Source: Oscillospiraceae bacterium
GTDB taxonomy: Bacteria; Bacillota; Clostridia; Oscillospirales; Oscillospiraceae
Length of the DNA stretch: 37,304 nt
Assembly (NCBI GenBank): GCA_017448455.1
Contig: JAFSLL010000160.1
Span: 1-37,304, forward strand
Reading direction: 5' to 3'
Below the pieces are notes generated by a model that was not told the origin of the DNA, made no database searches, and saw only the letters and a list, made by a program, of their open reading frames with translations. Shown one piece after another: positions 2,075 through 25,345 of this stretch (position 1 is the stretch's first letter; every line of letters begins with the position of its first letter). The position numbers and the translations under genes are program-made.

Positions 2075-2590
2075 ATGGATCAGACCGGGTTTGTATTGGA
2101 TGCGCTTGATCTCAAGCTGCTGATCCTGTTTATTCTCCGCCGGCTCCCCTCTGAAATTGAAACCGATCGGCTTTTCCATCTCATTCAGCAGGACGGTGTC
2201 GTCAATTATTTTGATTTTACGGTTGCTTTGGATGAACTGTGTGAGAGTGGCCAGGTTATTTCGGAAGACGGTTTTTGCTCGATTACGGATCGCGGCAGGA
2301 ACAATGCCGAAACCGTAGAATCCAGTCTTCCGTTCAGTGTACGGCAGCATGCCTCTGCGGCGGCATCGGCGGAAGCGGACGAAATGTCCAGACGTGGCTG
2401 CATTCAAGCCGCTCACACAGTATCAGACGGTGTGTGCACGGTTGAACTCTCTCTTTCGGACGGAATCAGCGAGCTGCTTTCTCTCCGCCTCCTTTGTGCC
2501 GATGAGAAGCAGGCAAAAAGCATGGAGAAGACATTCCGCCGTCACGCAGAGGAGACATACCAGAAAATTGTAACAATACTCAGTGAATAG
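2075..2590 (+). CDS. DUF4364 family protein
   Basis: A 171-residue protein resembling the DUF4364 family of clostridia. Its N-terminal half (about 8-75) reads like a winged helix: two helices, then a helix with an acidic-hydrophobic pattern and a short strand turn (VISEDGFCSITDRG). The second half is mixed beta with a long C-terminal helix. A transcriptional regulator or adaptor role is plausible from the fold, but the family has no established function. It starts 4 bases after the beta-helix gene and ends 10 bases before asnA, so it is almost certainly part of the same transcript. Confidence 0.7.
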   Translation: MDQTGFVLDALDLKLLILFILRRLPSEIETDRLFHLIQQDGVVNYFDFTVALDELCESGQVISEDGFCSITDRGRNNAETVESSLPFSVRQHASAAASAEADEMSRRGCIQAAHTVSDGVCTVELSLSDGISELLSLRLLCADEKQAKSMEKTFRRHAEETYQKIVTILSE

Positions 2591-2600
2591 AGGAAATTGC

Positions 2601-3614
2601 ATGGAAACCTTTATCCCGGATGGATACAGTAGCCTTTTGGGCATGTATGACACGCAGAAGGCGATCAGTCTTCTTCACAGACTGTTTGAGGACAGACTGG
2701 GAGCCCTTTTGAATCTGTACCGTGTCTCGGCACCGCTTTTTGTGGAGGAAAACTCCGGACTGAATGATAACCTGAATGGTTATGAACGGCCGGTAAGTTT
2801 TGATATTCTCCGTTCTGAACACCGCGCCCAGGTCGTTCAGTCTCTTGCCAAATGGAAGCGTCTTGCACTGAAGCGTTATGGCTTTTTCCCGGGAAAAGGC
2901 CTGTATACGGATATGAATGCCATTCGCCGCGACGAAGACGAACTGGATAATCTTCATTCCGTGTATGTGGACCAGTGGGACTGGGAGAAAGTAATTCTGC
3001 CGGAAAACCGTAATCTGGATTATCTGAAGCTTACGGTCATGGATATTGTCCGGGCAATCTGCGACACACAGGACACCATTCAGGCGATCTATCCACAGCT
3101 CCAGATTCTCGGGAAATTGGAGCGGGAGGTCAGCTTTATCACAACCCAGGAACTGGAAGACCGCTATCCGGAGCTGACACCCAAAGAACGTGAAAACGCA
3201 TATCTGAAAGAACACAGGACGGCGTTCCTGATTGGAATCGGGGAGCCGCTTCGATCCGGAAAACCGCATGATGGACGTGCGCCGGATTACGATGACTGGA
3301 AGCTGAACGGGGATATCCTGTTCTATGATGATGTTCTTGACTGCGCCATGGAAGTGTCATCCATGGGAATACGGGTCGATCCTGCTTCTATGGACCGTCA
3401 GCTTCATGAAGCCGGCTGTGATGACCGACGAAAACTTCCGTATCATCGAGCCCTCCTGGCAGGGGAGCTCCCTCTCACGATCGGTGGTGGTATCGGTCAG
3501 TCGCGCGTGTCCATGCTTCTTCTGGGAAAGGCGCACATCGGCGAGGTACAGGCTTCCATATGGGATGAAGAAACCATAAGGATCTGTGAAGAAAACGGAG
3601 TCGTCCTGTTGTGA
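2601..3614 (+). CDS. asnA: Aspartate-ammonia ligase (asparagine synthetase A)
   Basis: AsnA makes asparagine from aspartate, ammonia and ATP in the cytosol. It is related to class II tRNA synthetases. The 337-residue length is near the family norm (about 330). Diagnostic stretches include SGLNDNLNGYERPV near the N-terminus, the central VDQWDWEKVI segment, and the class II motif 3-like GGGIGQSR (295-302) followed by LLGKAHIGEVQASIW. The frame is open from 2583, but the ATG at 2601 has an AGAGGAA Shine-Dalgarno 6 bases upstream and begins METFIPDGY, as expected for the family. The end overlaps the next gene (GTGA). Confidence 0.96.
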   Translation: METFIPDGYSSLLGMYDTQKAISLLHRLFEDRLGALLNLYRVSAPLFVEENSGLNDNLNGYERPVSFDILRSEHRAQVVQSLAKWKRLALKRYGFFPGKGLYTDMNAIRRDEDELDNLHSVYVDQWDWEKVILPENRNLDYLKLTVMDIVRAICDTQDTIQAIYPQLQILGKLEREVSFITTQELEDRYPELTPKERENAYLKEHRTAFLIGIGEPLRSGKPHDGRAPDYDDWKLNGDILFYDDVLDCAMEVSSMGIRVDPASMDRQLHEAGCDDRRKLPYHRALLAGELPLTIGGGIGQSRVSMLLLGKAHIGEVQASIWDEETIRICEENGVVLL

Positions 3615-4393
3615 TTGCCATAAGCAGCCGTCAAAGTGCGGTCATACAGGCCTTTCGAAAACTGGAAAGAGACAGCGCGTACAGAAAGGCCTGTGGCCAG
3701 TTTTCGGCAGATGGCAGAAAACTGCTAAGGGAAGCGCTGCGTTCCGGTGCAGAGATTGAGACGGTTTTGTGGAAAGAGAAAAGAGACGAATCATTTCCCG
3801 TTTTCCCGAATGAGTATCTGCTTCCTCCAGACCTCTTTGACTATGTCTCTTCTCAGAAGAATTCTCCGGGACCGCTGTTCACGGTATCCTTTTCGGAGAG
3901 CAGCTTTCCTTCGAAGCCGAAACAGGTTCTGGTTCTGGAAGGAATACAGGACCCCGGAAATCTGGGCACCATACTGCGAACAGCAGAGGCCTTTGATATC
4001 GACGGAGTGATTCTGCTGGAAGACTGCGCGGACCCGTACTCGCCCAAAGCGGTGCGGGCAACCATGGGCGCGGTATTCCGTCCGCGCTTTAGACTGATGG
4101 ACAGAAGCACGGTTTCAGATTTCTGCAGAGAAAAAGGACTTCCGCTATGGGGAGCAGCGCTCCGTGATGATGCGGTGGATATTCTGAAAGTGAATCTCAA
4201 TCATGCCGCGGTGGCGATTGGAAGCGAGGGAAGAGGGCTGTCGAAAGAGCTGCTTGCCTGCTGTGACGGCAGCCTTATCATTCCGATGCGGGGCATTTCG
4301 GAATCGTTGAACGCGTCCGTCGCTGCGGCGGTTGTTCTGTGGGAGATGCAGTGCGGAGGTGCGCGGTGTACTGGATCTGGCTCTCACAACTGA
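3611..4393 (+). CDS. SpoU/TrmH family RNA 2'-O-methyltransferase
   Basis: A 260-residue SPOUT-class methylase that transfers a methyl group from SAM to a ribose 2'-OH of rRNA or tRNA. All three family motifs are visible. Motif 1 is EGIQDPGNLGTILRTAEAF (from Glu110, with the key Asn and Arg). Motif 2 is AIGSEGRGLS. Motif 3 is SESLNASVAAAVVLWE near the C-terminus; together they form the trefoil knot that binds SAM. The N-terminal 90 residues form the substrate-binding domain typical of the TsnR/RlmB-like branch. The start is GTG, overlapping the asnA stop. The target nucleotide cannot be read from sequence. Confidence 0.92.
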   Translation: MIAISSRQSAVIQAFRKLERDSAYRKACGQFSADGRKLLREALRSGAEIETVLWKEKRDESFPVFPNEYLLPPDLFDYVSSQKNSPGPLFTVSFSESSFPSKPKQVLVLEGIQDPGNLGTILRTAEAFDIDGVILLEDCADPYSPKAVRATMGAVFRPRFRLMDRSTVSDFCREKGLPLWGAALRDDAVDILKVNLNHAAVAIGSEGRGLSKELLACCDGSLIIPMRGISESLNASVAAAVVLWEMQCGGARCTGSGSHN

Positions 4394-20020: not shown

Positions 20021-20023
20021 TTG

Positions 20024-20052
20024 TTGACAAAGGGCTGTTTCTCCGCTATAAT
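20024..20052 (+). promoter_or_regulatory. Consensus sigma-A promoter of rpsU
   Basis: TTGACA (20024-20029), exactly 17 bases, then TATAAT (20047-20052): both boxes match consensus perfectly. It begins 4 bases after the leuS stop, so rpsU has its own strong promoter. The leader then carries a hairpin at 20087-20103 (CGTTGCG/CGCGACG with one G-U pair) just before the Shine-Dalgarno, which might tune translation. Confidence 0.9.
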
Positions 20053-20123
20053 TAATCTGTTAAAGCCAATTGTTTGGCCCTTGAATCGTTGCGTTTCGCG
20101 ACGTGCCGGAGGGAGGGAAATAA

Positions 20124-20309
20124 GTGTCTGAAATCTATGTGAAAGAGAATGAGTCTCTGGATAATGCGTTGAAGCGTTTTAAGCGCAGCTGCGCGAAGTC
20201 CGGTGTTCTTGCCGATCTGCGCAAGAAGGAGTATTACCAGAGCCCCAGCGTAAAACGCCGCAAGAAATCAGAAGCCGCGCGTAAGAATAAGAATAAGCGC
20301 TACTATTAA
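20124..20309 (+). CDS. rpsU: 30S ribosomal protein S21
   Basis: A 61-residue, very basic protein with the S21 pattern: [18 protein letters not shown] near the start, the [17 protein letters not shown] helix and a Lys/Arg/Asn tail ending in RYY. S21 sits near the anti-Shine-Dalgarno end of 16S rRNA and supports initiation. Start is GTG with an extended GGAGGGAGG site (20108-20116). It is a single-gene unit with a consensus promoter and a strong terminator. Confidence 0.97.
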
Positions 20310-20322
20310 TTCTGAAACATAT

Positions 20323-20370
20323 ACAGTCCCCCGAAGCTGCTGAAGCCGCTATCGGGGGACTGTGTTTTTC
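20323..20370 (+). terminator. Rho-independent terminator of rpsU
   Basis: A 12-bp perfect stem (ACAGTCCCCCGA at 20323-20334, TCGGGGGACTGT at 20352-20363) with a 17-base loop, followed by GTTTTTC. It begins 13 bases after the rpsU stop. Confidence 0.93.
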
Positions 20371-23073: not shown

Positions 23074-23117
23074 AAGAGACGAACGGGCGGTCAAGTCTCC
23101 CGTTCGTCTCTTTTTTT
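23074..23117. terminator. Bidirectional terminator between hexokinase gene and gtrA
   Basis: A 13-bp stem (AGAGACGAACGGG at 23075-23087 with CCCGTTCGTCTCT at 23099-23111), 11-base loop, T run at 23111-23117 on the + side and an A run on the left that gives T on the - side. It can stop both converging transcripts. The gtrA stop codon (23091-23093, - strand) is inside the loop. Confidence 0.93.
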
Positions 23118-23534
23118 GGCCAAAGCGTTGGTATCAATACTGTCACGAAACACTACAAATCTGTCATACAGGTATTCCAGAACAAAATTCAGAATCATAT
23201 TGATCGCAGTCACCAGATATTCATTCCAGAGCAGCCCTTCTGCAAGCCAGTTGCCAAAGACAGTGCTCAGAGGCGTGAAAACCGTATAAAACAGAGCAAC
23301 CTTCATCATCGCAACCGGTACGTTGTTGGCAGATCGGAATGTATAACGACGGTTTAAAGTGAAATTCCACAGTACGGACAGAACCAGCGCAATCAGATAG
23401 CAGGGCCAGTATGGCCAGCCAAGTGTTTCATTGAGCAGCGCAAAGGAAACAATTTCGATGATTCCGGCGGAAACAGAGAACAAAAGAAATTTCAGAGAAC
23501 GAAGCATTTCCGTTCTGGTGTTGGATGAATTCAC
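23091..23534 (-). CDS. GtrA-like membrane protein
   Basis: A 147-residue protein with four hydrophobic helices in the GtrA pattern (LKFLLFSVSAGIIEIVSFALL; WPCYLIALVLSVLWNFTLNRRYTF; VALFYTVFTPLST; LVTAINMILNFVLEYLYDRFVVF). The NFxLNRxYTF and FxxxRFVVF stretches are family marks. GtrA proteins are thought to help move lipid-linked sugars across the membrane for cell-wall or surface polymer decoration. Start is GTG (- strand) with a weak AAAGAG upstream; an in-frame ATG nine codons on is a possible alternative. Its last eight codons are encoded by the shared terminator hairpin. Confidence 0.88.
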   Translation of the reverse strand: MNSSNTRTEMLRSLKFLLFSVSAGIIEIVSFALLNETLGWPYWPCYLIALVLSVLWNFTLNRRYTFRSANNVPVAMMKVALFYTVFTPLSTVFGNWLAEGLLWNEYLVTAINMILNFVLEYLYDRFVVFRDSIDTNALAKKRDERET

Positions 23535-23575
23535 GGGATTTCACTCTTTTCATCATTAAAGAAATATTTTTTAAA

Positions 23576-23604
23576 ATTATCTGATTGCTGTCGGGATTTG
23601 TCAA
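23576..23604 (-). promoter_or_regulatory. Promoter of gtrA
   Basis: On the - strand, TTGACA (23604-23599), 17 bases, GATAAT (23581-23576). It lies about 42 bases upstream of the GTG start and points away from the non-coding RNA promoter at 23710. Confidence 0.8.
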
Positions 23605-23659
23605 CTTCCGAAACTGAACAAAATGACTGTTTTGTTGCAATCATATGAAAGATTCATCA

Positions 23660-23731
23660 CATTATGAAATAATGACATGTAAAAAAATCATGAACCTTGT
23701 GCAAAGTGCTTGACAAGGTTCACATAATGTG
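23660..23731. promoter_or_regulatory. Cluster of perfect inverted repeats around the non-coding RNA promoter (candidate operators)
   Basis: Three symmetrical sites lie within 72 bases. CATTAT-GAA-ATAATG is at 23660-23674. TGAACCTTGT (23691-23700) and ACAAGGTTCA (23713-23722) form a perfect 10-bp inverted repeat with a 12-base spacer, overlapping the -35 box at 23710-23715. CACAT-A-ATGTG at 23721-23731 fills the spacer between -35 and -10. The cores CATTATG and CATAATG recur. The placement suggests binding by one or more dimeric regulators; the regulator is unknown. Confidence 0.55.
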
Positions 23732-23738
23732 GTATTTT
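23710..23738 (+). promoter_or_regulatory. Promoter of the non-coding RNA candidate
   Basis: TTGACA (23710-23715, perfect), 17 bases, TATTTT (23733-23738). The predicted start site is about 23744. There is no protein gene downstream on this strand before the terminator at 23975-24004, so the transcript must be a stand-alone RNA. Confidence 0.75.
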
Positions 23739-23743
23739 ATGAC

Positions 23744-24004
23744 TTGCGATGAGGGGCGTCACCCCTTGATGTGTCGGCATCATAACCCGTTAGCGCATGG
23801 AAGATTTACTTGCGGGCCGCCGGGGCCAAATTCCGGCAAGCTGTGACGGGCAGCGATAGTCCTCAGCAATACCCACTTTTGTTGACGGGACTGAACACCG
23901 ACGCGGCTTGGATTACGATGATCGCGACATCGTTGTCCGCGCCAATGTACAATGTTATATTGTGCAAATGATAAACCCGCTTCTGAAAAGAAGCGGGTGT
24001 TTTC
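23744..24004 (+). ncRNA. Stand-alone structured non-coding RNA candidate, about 260 nt, class not recognised
   Basis: The stretch has a sigma-A promoter, many compact helices and a strong terminator, but no good reading frame. Helices seen by eye: AGGGG/CCCCT (23752-23766); GATGT/GCATC (23768-23781), whose GTCG loop can pair with CGAC at 23899-23902 as a pseudoknot; CCCGTTA (23786-23792) with TGACGGG (23844-23850, a second copy at 23883-23889); CTTGC/GCAAG (23809-23840); AGTCC-CAGCAA with TTGTTG-GGACT (about 23858-23892); CGCGG/CCGCG enclosing ACGATG/CATCGT (23902-23941); GTACAAT/ATTGTGC (23947-23965). I see no tmRNA, RNase P, SRP, T-box or common riboswitch consensus. 6S or raiA-type RNA are alternatives that I cannot confirm or exclude. 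Confidence 0.6.
23975..24004 (+). terminator. Terminator of the non-coding RNA
   Basis: A perfect 10-bp stem (ACCCGCTTCT at 23975-23984, AGAAGCGGGT at 23989-23998) with a GAAA tetraloop, followed by GTGTTTTCTT. The reverse side has only a short T run (GGGTTTATC), so it would be a weaker stop for the converging rodA-type gene. Confidence 0.9.
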
Positions 24005-24020
24005 TTATACACGGGAGCTG

Positions 24021-25211
24021 TCAGTAAATGGAGAACAGCTGGGGTTTCAGCTTGAATTTGACACCGGAAACCAGTCCCATTGCGGCAAACATGGTAACCA
24101 TGGAAGAGCCTCCGTAGCTGAAGAAGGGAAGGGTGATTCCGATTACGGGCGTAATGCCGATGCACATACCGATGTTGATAAATGTCTGAAATGCTACTGC
24201 GGAAGCAACGCCGATACAGATCAGCATATCATAGGTGCGGCCGGCTTTTAACCCGACACGTGTAATGTGAATCATCACAATCAGCAGCAGAATAATAACG
24301 ACAATACAGCCAACCATCCCAAGCTCTTCCCCGACACAGGAGAAGATGAAGTCCGTATGTTTCCCGGTGAAAACAGTGGCACGATGTTCGGCATCGACAC
24401 CGGTTAACCTTCCCGAGGCAAGGGTAAGCTTGCTTTGGGTTGTCTGCCAGGTGATGCCCCAGCCATCCGGGTCAATGGAAGGATCATAAGGGGCAATCAG
24501 ACGTTTTTTCTGGTAGTCTTTGAGAAAATACGTCCAAAGCAGAGGAATGGCTGCCGCAACAGCGGCTCCGCCCAGCGCGAACCAGTAGAGACGGACACCG
24601 AGAGCGAAAAACATGGAAAGAAAGATCAGCAGAATGATGGCGGCGCTGCCGAGGTCGGAAGAAACGACAACGATCAGTCCGAATACAATAACGAAGTGCC
24701 CTGCCATCTGCACGACAGAGGGAAGAGAATTGATATCACGGTATTCTTTCAGCCAGGTCATCTGTTTGGCGGAGATAACGATATAAATGACTTTTATGAT
24801 TTCAGAGGGCTGAACACCGATTCCGGCGAAGCGAATCCAGCTTTTGTTGCCGGTTCCGCTGTCCTGACCGAAAATGACCAGCGCAACCAGAAGAAGAATG
24901 TTGATTACACAAAGCGCTCTCCACTGTTCCCCGAGAAGATCCGCATCAAGGAAAGTGAGCACAACGAAAGCGATTAAGCCAAGAAACAGAGAGAACACCT
25001 GGACAATAACACACTTTACGGAGCTGTCGACCCAACCGGAAGCTTCCATCGCGATGGTGGCAATTCGGACCATATAAATCCCGAAGAGGGAACAGAGCAG
25101 ACACATTACGAGAAGGAAAATATCCGCCCTTTCAAAAAACATCCTGGCATAAACCTTGATTTTTTTTATGATGTGCCGCCTCCTTTCGGACTGGATAGAC
25201 CGCAAAATCAT
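24021..25211 (-). CDS. rodA: FtsW/RodA/SpoVE family cell-wall glycosyltransferase (SEDS protein)
   Basis: SEDS proteins polymerise lipid II glycan strands with a partner transpeptidase, for elongation (RodA), division (FtsW) or sporulation (SpoVE). About ten membrane helices are visible. The family signature is near the C-terminus: GITLPFFSYGGSSM, preceded by HTDFIFSCVGEELGM and the GRLTG loop. No penicillin-binding partner lies nearby, so the RodA name is a best guess. The start is uncertain. The first ATG (25211) coincides with the predicted transcription start of the -10 at 25220-25215. A strong AAAGGAGG (25186-25179) is followed at 6 and 9 bases by in-frame ATC and ATA, and the next ATG is at 25142. 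Confidence 0.9.
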   Translation of the reverse strand: MILRSIQSERRRHIIKKIKVYARMFFERADIFLLVMCLLCSLFGIYMVRIATIAMEASGWVDSSVKCVIVQVFSLFLGLIAFVVLTFLDADLLGEQWRALCVINILLLVALVIFGQDSGTGNKSWIRFAGIGVQPSEIIKVIYIVISAKQMTWLKEYRDINSLPSVVQMAGHFVIVFGLIVVVSSDLGSAAIILLIFLSMFFALGVRLYWFALGGAAVAAAIPLLWTYFLKDYQKKRLIAPYDPSIDPDGWGITWQTTQSKLTLASGRLTGVDAEHRATVFTGKHTDFIFSCVGEELGMVGCIVVIILLLIVMIHITRVGLKAGRTYDMLICIGVASAVAFQTFINIGMCIGITPVIGITLPFFSYGGSSMVTMFAAMGLVSGVKFKLKPQLFSIY

Positions 25212-25309: not shown

Positions 25310-25345
25310 GATATGAATTTGAGGAGTAGGAGCAGCAAAGCCCAT

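Follow-up and report, generated by a model that had tools for sequence, protein, structure and literature searches.

A stretch of DNA of 37,304 nucleotides from an Oscillospiraceae bacterium (contig JAFSLL010000160.1 of assembly GCA_017448455.1; hereafter the window) contains a solitary structured RNA gene, whose relatives elsewhere lie directly in front of genes for PBECR4, a predicted nuclease. We assign about even odds (roughly 0.5) to the reading that the window RNA is an independent small RNA gene, a solitary, single-module relative of a PBECR4-linked RNA antitoxin, and that it is kept as an antidote or decoy. The first observation, that of a structured RNA, is confirmed as real, while the interpretation attached to the original prediction is, as a whole, partly supported.

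A structured RNA gene in the window

The predicted sigma-A type promoter was borne out, as was the intrinsic terminator, which corresponds to a terminator-like stem with 10 pairs (Table 1). The minimum free energy (MFE) of 23744-24004 is -104.1 kcal/mol (z -4.36), and none of 200 dinucleotide shuffles folded as well, in agreement with the prediction of a structured RNA. A loop pseudoknot proposed from the tetramers GTCG and CGAC is right and longer than claimed (PK1), and it is present even in the plain MFE fold, where it forms a nested helix and displaces hairpin H2. A duplicated TGACGGG had been thought able to pair alternatively with CCCGTTA. CCCG does pair with the second copy in the MFE fold, but the alternative pairing is unsupported by conservation, because the second copy (23883-23889) sits in a stretch that varies among orthologues; the first copy (23844-23850) holds the conserved H5 loop and pairs with the CCCG at 23786-23789 in relatives. 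The window clade preserves the CACATAATGTG palindrome of the promoter spacer exactly in 6 of its 8 sequences; one end is altered in L009, and the palindrome is missing from L008. It is possibly an operator site.

Table 1. Features of the RNA locus and its surroundings, in window coordinates
Feature	Position	Strand	Remarks
Solitary structured RNA gene (predicted transcript)	23744-24004	+	own promoter, fold, relatives
Sigma-A type promoter TTGACA-17-TATTTT	23710-23738	+	-35, 23710-23715; 17-nt spacer; -10, 23733-23738
CACATAATGTG palindrome, possible operator	23721-23731	+	in the spacer separating -35 and -10
H1 hairpin GAGGGG/CCCCUU	23751-23767	+	100% of cells paired; one pair with two-sided change
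H2 hairpin GAUG/CAUC	23768-23781	+	100% of cells paired; 2/4 pairs with two-sided change
PK1 5' strand UGUCGG (H2 loop)	23772-23777	+	pairs with 23898-23903
PK2 5' strand CCCG	23786-23789	+	partner 23847-23850; 99.5% of cells; CCUG/CAGG in two relatives
H3 hairpin GCAUG/CUUGC	23795-23813	+	91.9% of cells; one U.U mismatch in window copy
PK3, H-type pseudoknot	23815-23836	+	helices 89.9% and 92.5% of cells
PK3 helix a, GGCC with GGCC	23815-23818, 23824-23827		
PK3 helix b, CCGG with CCGG	23820-23823, 23833-23836		
H5 hairpin GCUG/CAGC	23840-23854	+	100% of cells; 2/4 pairs with two-sided change
PK2 3' strand CGGG (H5 loop)	23847-23850	+	
H6 AGUC/GACU, enclosing variable insert	23858-23892	+	paired in nine sequences; variable in wider set
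PK1 3' strand CCGACG	23898-23903	+	partner H2 loop, 23772-23777
Variable 3' hairpin	23903-23943	+	apical ACGAUG-AUCGCGA-CAUCGU, 23915-23933; replaced or missing in many other copies
Intrinsic terminator-like stem-loop	23975-23998	+	10 bp, T-rich tail
GtrA-like membrane gene, upstream of RNA	23091-23534	-	PF04138, E 1e-14; context
FTSW/RODA/SPOVE family gene, convergent	24021-25211	-	PF01098, E 8e-70; context, not partner

The expectation that no forward-strand gene lies close downstream also held: the first annotatable one is a TsaE-like gene at 25313, and the forward-strand open reading frames at 23952-24251 and 24435-24977 are antisense to the convergent FTSW/RODA/SPOVE gene. The RNA had been placed in the only long non-coding stretch of the window, which was not correct, as its stretch (23535-24020, 486 nt) is merely the longest and 20021-20361 (341 nt) is also non-coding. 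The latter gap precedes an NfeD-like gene.

The RNA family is absent from Rfam 15. The suggested covariance-model search of the whole window at gathering scores gave no match, and at E values up to 10 the region 23540-24100 returned only sub-threshold matches far below their cut-offs, all implausible (SSRC10, Thr_leader, Trp_leader and two snoRNAs). The proposal of a divergent 6S or raiA RNA was not supported, since neither appeared in this region at E up to 10. raiA (RF03072, cut-off 101.3 bits) was not matched in the genome of the window, although the same search was also silent in all 14 control genomes, which leaves the absence of raiA unproven. Among 12 solitary-RNA loci (E up to 5) the sole match touching the RNA was anti-hemB on L089, at 30.6 bits against a cut-off of 49.5, and 12 PBECR4-linked loci (E up to 1) gave none on the RNA. 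For want of any Rfam match on the RNA, 6S, raiA and tmRNA were rejected; a riboswitch leader was rejected in the same way, together with the absence of a co-directional gene close behind the window copy.

A dispersed family of solitary RNAs in the genus

The search for homologues started from the neighbouring FTSW/RODA/SPOVE protein as query, yielding 30 loci. The seven closest relatives (L004-L010, 86-93% protein identity) carry the RNA at the syntenic place; at the 22 more distant loci, it was not found there by blastn or nhmmer. A covariance model built from the window copy and six closest-relative copies (R1) was run on 102 genus genomes, many of them incomplete. It detected 63 copies of the RNA, patchily distributed over 49 genomes at one to three per genome, a few of the copies being weak or partial (L092, L095). 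The window and genus copies consist of one module each. Their alignment has a common core of about 112 nt, with the order H1, H2, UUAACCCG, H3, the H-type pseudoknot and H5, followed by a variable part and AAAACCGRUU.

A promoter with at least 9 of 12 consensus positions is found upstream of 61 of the 63 copies, compared to 8 of 63 after one mononucleotide shuffle each. A lenient terminator scan was set aside as evidence, as it scored 55/63 copies and also 27/63 shuffled ones. The neighbouring genes fall into 26 groups, and there is no orientation bias of upstream/downstream genes (-/+ 19, +/+ 18, -/- 13, +/- 11, undetermined 2). Pfam assignment of 10 of the 26 distinct co-directional downstream genes gave seven ordinary families (molybdopterin-binding, DJ-1 twice, carbonic anhydrase, AI-2E transporter, YhhN and radical SAM) and three without a match. 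The conserved promoter and the varied neighbours, orientations and downstream genes therefore indicate a dispersed stand-alone gene rather than a leader, as originally predicted for an RNA of no recognized class. A fixed partner gene was considered, and none was seen among the neighbour groups, the orientations or the 10 genes assigned by Pfam.

To evaluate covariation, 52 distinct cores were aligned with MAFFT, leaving out identical cores and the atypical L057, L089, L090 and L092-L095. A seven-helix structure that includes PK2 and PK3 is paired in 96.3% of cells, and 12 of its 32 pairs show two-sided changes. Four of five measures were reached by none of 500 shuffles and the fifth, the number of further pair types, by 2; slid versions of the structure were at most 56% paired. 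For PK3, 5 of 9 pairs show a two-sided change in some sequence, although in the window clade (eight sequences) one PK3 helix is one column out of register, so that counts there are not meaningful. PK1 could be scored in 60 of the 63 copies, three being unparsable: 352 of 360 pairs form (307 Watson-Crick and 45 G-U), at least five of the six pairs are present in 59 of the 60 copies, and the Watson-Crick count was reached by 0/5000 shuffles. The comparison with homologues called for at the outset thus provides covariation support for the seven predicted core helices, two pseudoknots among them, and for PK1 closing the core.

Two-module relatives in front of PBECR4 genes

A covariance model of the core built only from solitary RNAs (R2) matched 4 of 300 genomes of the family (three from the genus itself and G328) and 3 of 291 genomes of the class (its own, G411 and G445), a low sensitivity owing to the just 12-13 candidates scored per genome. 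The matches outside the genus (L099, L101 and L102; E 8e-6 to 9e-6, and about 1e-7 in another search) are RNAs of two modules that have H1, H2 and PK1 in common with the solitary RNA, with compensatory changes in PK1 (e.g., GACUGG/CCAGUC), and that are followed by a gene. The gene products of L099 and L101 match PF18813, PBECR4 (E 2e-30 and 2e-27), L102 being 95% identical to L101, and neither the L099 nor the L101 protein matched the ToxN, CptN or TenpN families. In Pfam, PBECR4 is named "phage-Barnase-EndoU-ColicinE5/D-RelE like nuclease4", and the predicted RNase activity is based on this name.

Within the genus, the Pfam model and our own profile agree on three PBECR4 genes in 2 of 102 genomes, which speaks against hidden PBECR4 beyond these two, and none was found in the genome of the window. 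Two of the three are preceded by a two-module RNA (L103, L104) and one by a different stretch (L105). A tblastn search retrieved a single phage record, that of Erysipelothrix phage phi1605 (L109); there, too, the RNA precedes PBECR4, and all three long-range helices are formed by different yet complementary letters. Loci were also fetched by protein only, through a scan with a PBECR4 alignment, giving 25 in genome contigs and 2 in viral contigs; the RNA stands before the gene at 24 of the 25 genome loci (the exception, L133, begins inside the gene) and in both viral contigs.

A model built only from 20 two-module RNAs (R3) matched all 31 fetched loci of one PBECR4 subfamily with upstream DNA, 11 of them outside the model. 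These 31 represent 27 distinct loci, four having been fetched twice, and 25 distinct RNA sequences; L103/L118 and L104/L130 are identical with 300 nt flanks included, the L118 and L130 records being from roe deer abomasum and sheep rumen. The RNA ends 55-105 nt before the PBECR4 gene, several gaps being measured to where the protein match begins. Upstream of 30 of the 31 RNAs there is a promoter of at least 9/12, compared to 9 after shuffling, and a strict terminator scan found 19/31 against 3/31 shuffled. Folding 12 of the gaps, among them 9 of the 12 missed by the scan, gave one long hairpin in each; 9 of these beat at least 99 of 100 shuffles, and the others beat 95 (L136), 93 (L123) and 87 (L109). 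RNA and protein distances are correlated (Spearman 0.61, 17 pairs, 0/5000 permutations as high), which implies that the RNA and PBECR4 travel together.

The original notion of a lineage-specific regulatory RNA is accordingly too narrow, as two-module relatives occur in other genera of the class, in contigs assigned to other phyla and in one phage, many of them preceding PBECR4 genes. The Bacteroidales and Bacteroidota matches (L116, L117) are on contigs of metagenome-assembled genomes (MAGs) that may be misbinned; two Synergistales records (L119, L131) carry no MAG label in their titles. DNA searches found the RNA neither in phages and viral contigs (one exact pattern, and blastn with one orphan RNA and the window core) nor in plasmids (the same orphan RNA), and a single-protein search for PBECR4 confirmed none in viral contigs, none in plasmids and one phage. 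In a literature search with preprints outside its scope, the term "PBECR4" occurred in no paper, and none of the papers retrieved describes the RNA-PBECR4 pair, as judged from titles and the starts of abstracts.

R3 matched none of eight remote PBECR4 loci (L105-L108, L155, L159, L161, L162). By eye, each of these genes also lies behind a promoter-like site, a stretch resembling an RNA and a terminator-like hairpin, with a different sequence, and L155 and L161 have upstream motifs in common. PBECR4 may be a general RNA-paired nuclease.

Several arrangements were also seen around these units. L114 carries two RNA and PBECR4-like units in tandem (2292-4131, with R3 matches at 2292 and 3340), the second gene of which looks interrupted. 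The units of L108, L132 and L134 come after the apparent end of a glutamate dehydrogenase gene, by eye, and one also ends some 0.9 kb upstream in L114; this gene end is possibly a preferred insertion site of PBECR4 units. In the viral contig L135, sub-threshold group I intron matches (1256-1509 and 1670-1918; 38.1 and 35.7 bits against 50) lie upstream of the RNA and PBECR4 unit.

Interlocked modules and the PBECR4 protein

Since the alignment misregisters part of module 2, cross-pairs of the linked RNAs were tabulated element by element in 19 RNAs, with 4-letter elements chosen by eye, a choice that could favour a few rows. Twelve of the 31 loci were left out: eleven repeat the elements of another row, and the twelfth, L134, differs from L124 by one PK1 letter that gives a G-U pair. 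Each tabulated RNA has two modules, roughly 50-70 nt in length. Watson-Crick pairs link the module 1 strand to the module 2 loop at 76/76 positions, in five sequence types, and the module 2 strand to the module 1 loop at 73/76, in nine sequence types; pairing within modules instead would give only 43/76 and 41/76. PK1 forms 112 of 114 pairs (109 Watson-Crick and 3 G-U), 14 of the 19 rows are perfect in their long-range pairing, and none of the three long-range counts was reached in 20000 shuffles. RNAalifold picked PK1 unaided as the closing helix. The H-type pseudoknot of the solitary core was not seen in the two-module RNAs.

On the protein side, H54, T56, K106 and D166 are invariant in 19 PBECR4 sequences. 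The predicted fold has a pLDDT of 91.9; a fold search with it returned two viral models at E about 1e-11 and no significant solved structure, and for this reason we can only infer that linked PBECR4 is an RNase. Defence, NCBIfam and PHROG libraries gave weak or no matches to the linked proteins.

Orphan two-module RNAs and kinship with the solitary RNAs

With a limit of E 1e-3, R3 had matches in 15 of the 291 class genomes. Thirteen RNAs, in 11 genomes, matched strongly (E 1.2e-7 or better); the four weakest matches (L148-L151, E about 5e-4 to 9e-4) probably arose by chance or represent fragments. Four of the 13 are followed by a PBECR4 gene without stops (L137, L139, L141, L142), and eight have no PBECR4 behind them (L140, L143-L147, L152, L153). 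The genomes G462, G538, G629 and G667 lack any PBECR4 match, and G562 and G643 have PBECR4 elsewhere, with no R3 match in front. In the remaining one of the 13 (L138/L160), the PBECR4 frame behind the two-module RNA is shortened and interrupted by a stop, which gives the impression of a nuclease half in decay. Two orphan RNAs (L146, L152) lie in one genome with starts 478 nt apart, and L153 lies elsewhere in the same genome.

When R3 was applied to 30 solitary loci (E up to 5), it gave ten matches, nine on the RNA and one off it. The best were L089 (2e-6), L035 and L037 (2e-4 each) and L033 (5e-4), followed by L057 (0.01), L045 (0.02), L085 (0.4), L051 (0.5) and L050 (0.8); the other 21 RNAs, the window copy included, were missed. 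The reciprocal matches of R2 and R3 and the common order H1-H2-CCG-H5-AAAACCG argue for common ancestry. That solitary and PBECR4-linked RNAs are homologous is thus well supported by sequence comparison, by which the window copy is classed as a divergent member of the RNA family.

Possible roles of the solitary RNA

Our analysis points to linked RNAs as antitoxins and solitary RNAs as antidote or decoy as the most likely assignment. The promoter-driven window RNA would fold into a compact core with PK1 as its long-range closure and two further pseudoknots inside. The linked two-module RNA would be an antitoxin that binds and masks the PBECR4 RNase, and the window RNA, expressed without a toxin of its own, could act against PBECR4-type nucleases that arrive on phages and other mobile elements. 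Given that its relatives stand directly before a predicted RNA-cutting toxin gene, the window copy may be a stand-alone antidote-like RNA. Several findings count against the antidote reading: R3 finds only 9 of 30 solitary RNAs and misses the window copy; remote PBECR4 genes lack such an RNA (0/8); and the solitary RNAs are single-module, while 0.8 of an antiQ repeat is insufficient according to passages of PMC5086642. Additionally, with PBECR4 in just 2 of 102 genus genomes, constant selection by PBECR4 can only be supposed.

A serious rival, if a somewhat unlikely one in our estimation, is that the solitary RNA shares ancestry with the PBECR4-linked RNA and was co-opted as a regulator, now acting like raiA/ModT through some host protein. 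The kept promoters, the conserved stretches and a single module whose H-type pseudoknot was not seen in the two-module RNAs speak for a co-opted role, as does the presence of copies in roughly half of the genomes of the genus, of which nearly all lack PBECR4. This is offset by the patchy presence (49/102), with one to three copies per genome at scattered loci, and by the lack of a shared partner gene beside the solitary copies. We consider it improbable that the linked RNA is instead a substrate, guide or activator of the PBECR4 enzyme, with solitary RNAs as extra substrates or guides in trans: linkage and co-inheritance show a partnership and not its sign, but the order of RNA, terminator-like hairpin and nuclease fits type III antitoxin loci as described in passages of PMC5086642, and a solitary guide would be idle in a genome without the enzyme. 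That the solitary RNAs are functionless remnants of decayed RNA-nuclease modules, as the shortened frame of L138 and the interrupted second gene of L114 might suggest, is very doubtful, since most of the 63 copies retain the pairing, the promoter and the core sequence, and the core also persists in the window copy's seven syntenic orthologues.

Extending the antidote or decoy reading, we tentatively propose, with rather less than even confidence, that PBECR4 and its upstream pseudoknot RNAs form a separate toxin-antitoxin superfamily, and that in several bacterial lineages the RNA half became independent "RNA immunity" genes, sometimes in multiple copies, which disarm incoming nuclease modules of phages and mobile elements. 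If PBECR4 kills and the RNA rescues, RNA-antidote systems would reach beyond the ToxN kind, and a group of predicted phage nucleases would gain a biological role and an RNA partner; solitary RNA antitoxins would represent a new layer of the conflict between bacteria and phages. The interlocked pseudoknots, held by compensatory change, are an attractive structural target.

Comparison with known systems

According to passages of PMC5512222, PBECR domains are predicted to be RNases, have a conserved histidine and an alcoholic residue, and occur either within polyvalent proteins or as solo domains of phages. Through Pfam PBECR4, the linked protein falls into the same phage-BECR group; it differs in having an upstream RNA, an RNA partner being unmentioned in those passages. 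The window RNA resembles raiA/ModT, as portrayed in parts of PMC11751092 and PMC11706538, in its size (about 210-260 nt), SigA promoter, terminator, two pseudoknots and variable neighbours. In contrast with the P1 helix and the pk-loop between P5 and P6 described there for raiA/ModT, the core of the window RNA would be closed by a pseudoknot from loop to 3' end, and there is no covariance-model match in the window or its genome.

The linked loci are most readily compared with type III systems (ToxIN, CptIN and TenpIN), as characterized in sections of PMC5086642, with which they have in common a promoter, repeated pseudoknot modules, a terminator-like hairpin and a predicted RNase gene, as well as an occurrence on chromosomal contigs and in phage. 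With respect to RNA and toxin gene under one promoter, the RNA is upstream at 31/31 linked loci (27 distinct) with a promoter-like site at 30/31, whereas the gene next to the window copy is the convergent FTSW/RODA/SPOVE gene. A terminator between RNA and toxin gene is likewise found in the linked relatives only. Tandem repeats are absent from the window and genus copies, which have one module, and in place of a ToxN/CptN/TenpN-type endoRNase the linked proteins, as in L099 and L101, are PBECR4 by Pfam. The three ToxIN systems covered in those sections of PMC5086642 have repeats of 34-36 nt; the linked RNA has two longer modules, cross-paired and closed by PK1, and the window copy a single module and no toxin gene. 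The same source reports an insufficient 0.8 repeat of antiQ, and it also describes phage escape through a "pseudo-ToxI", a precedent for RNA mimicry in trans.
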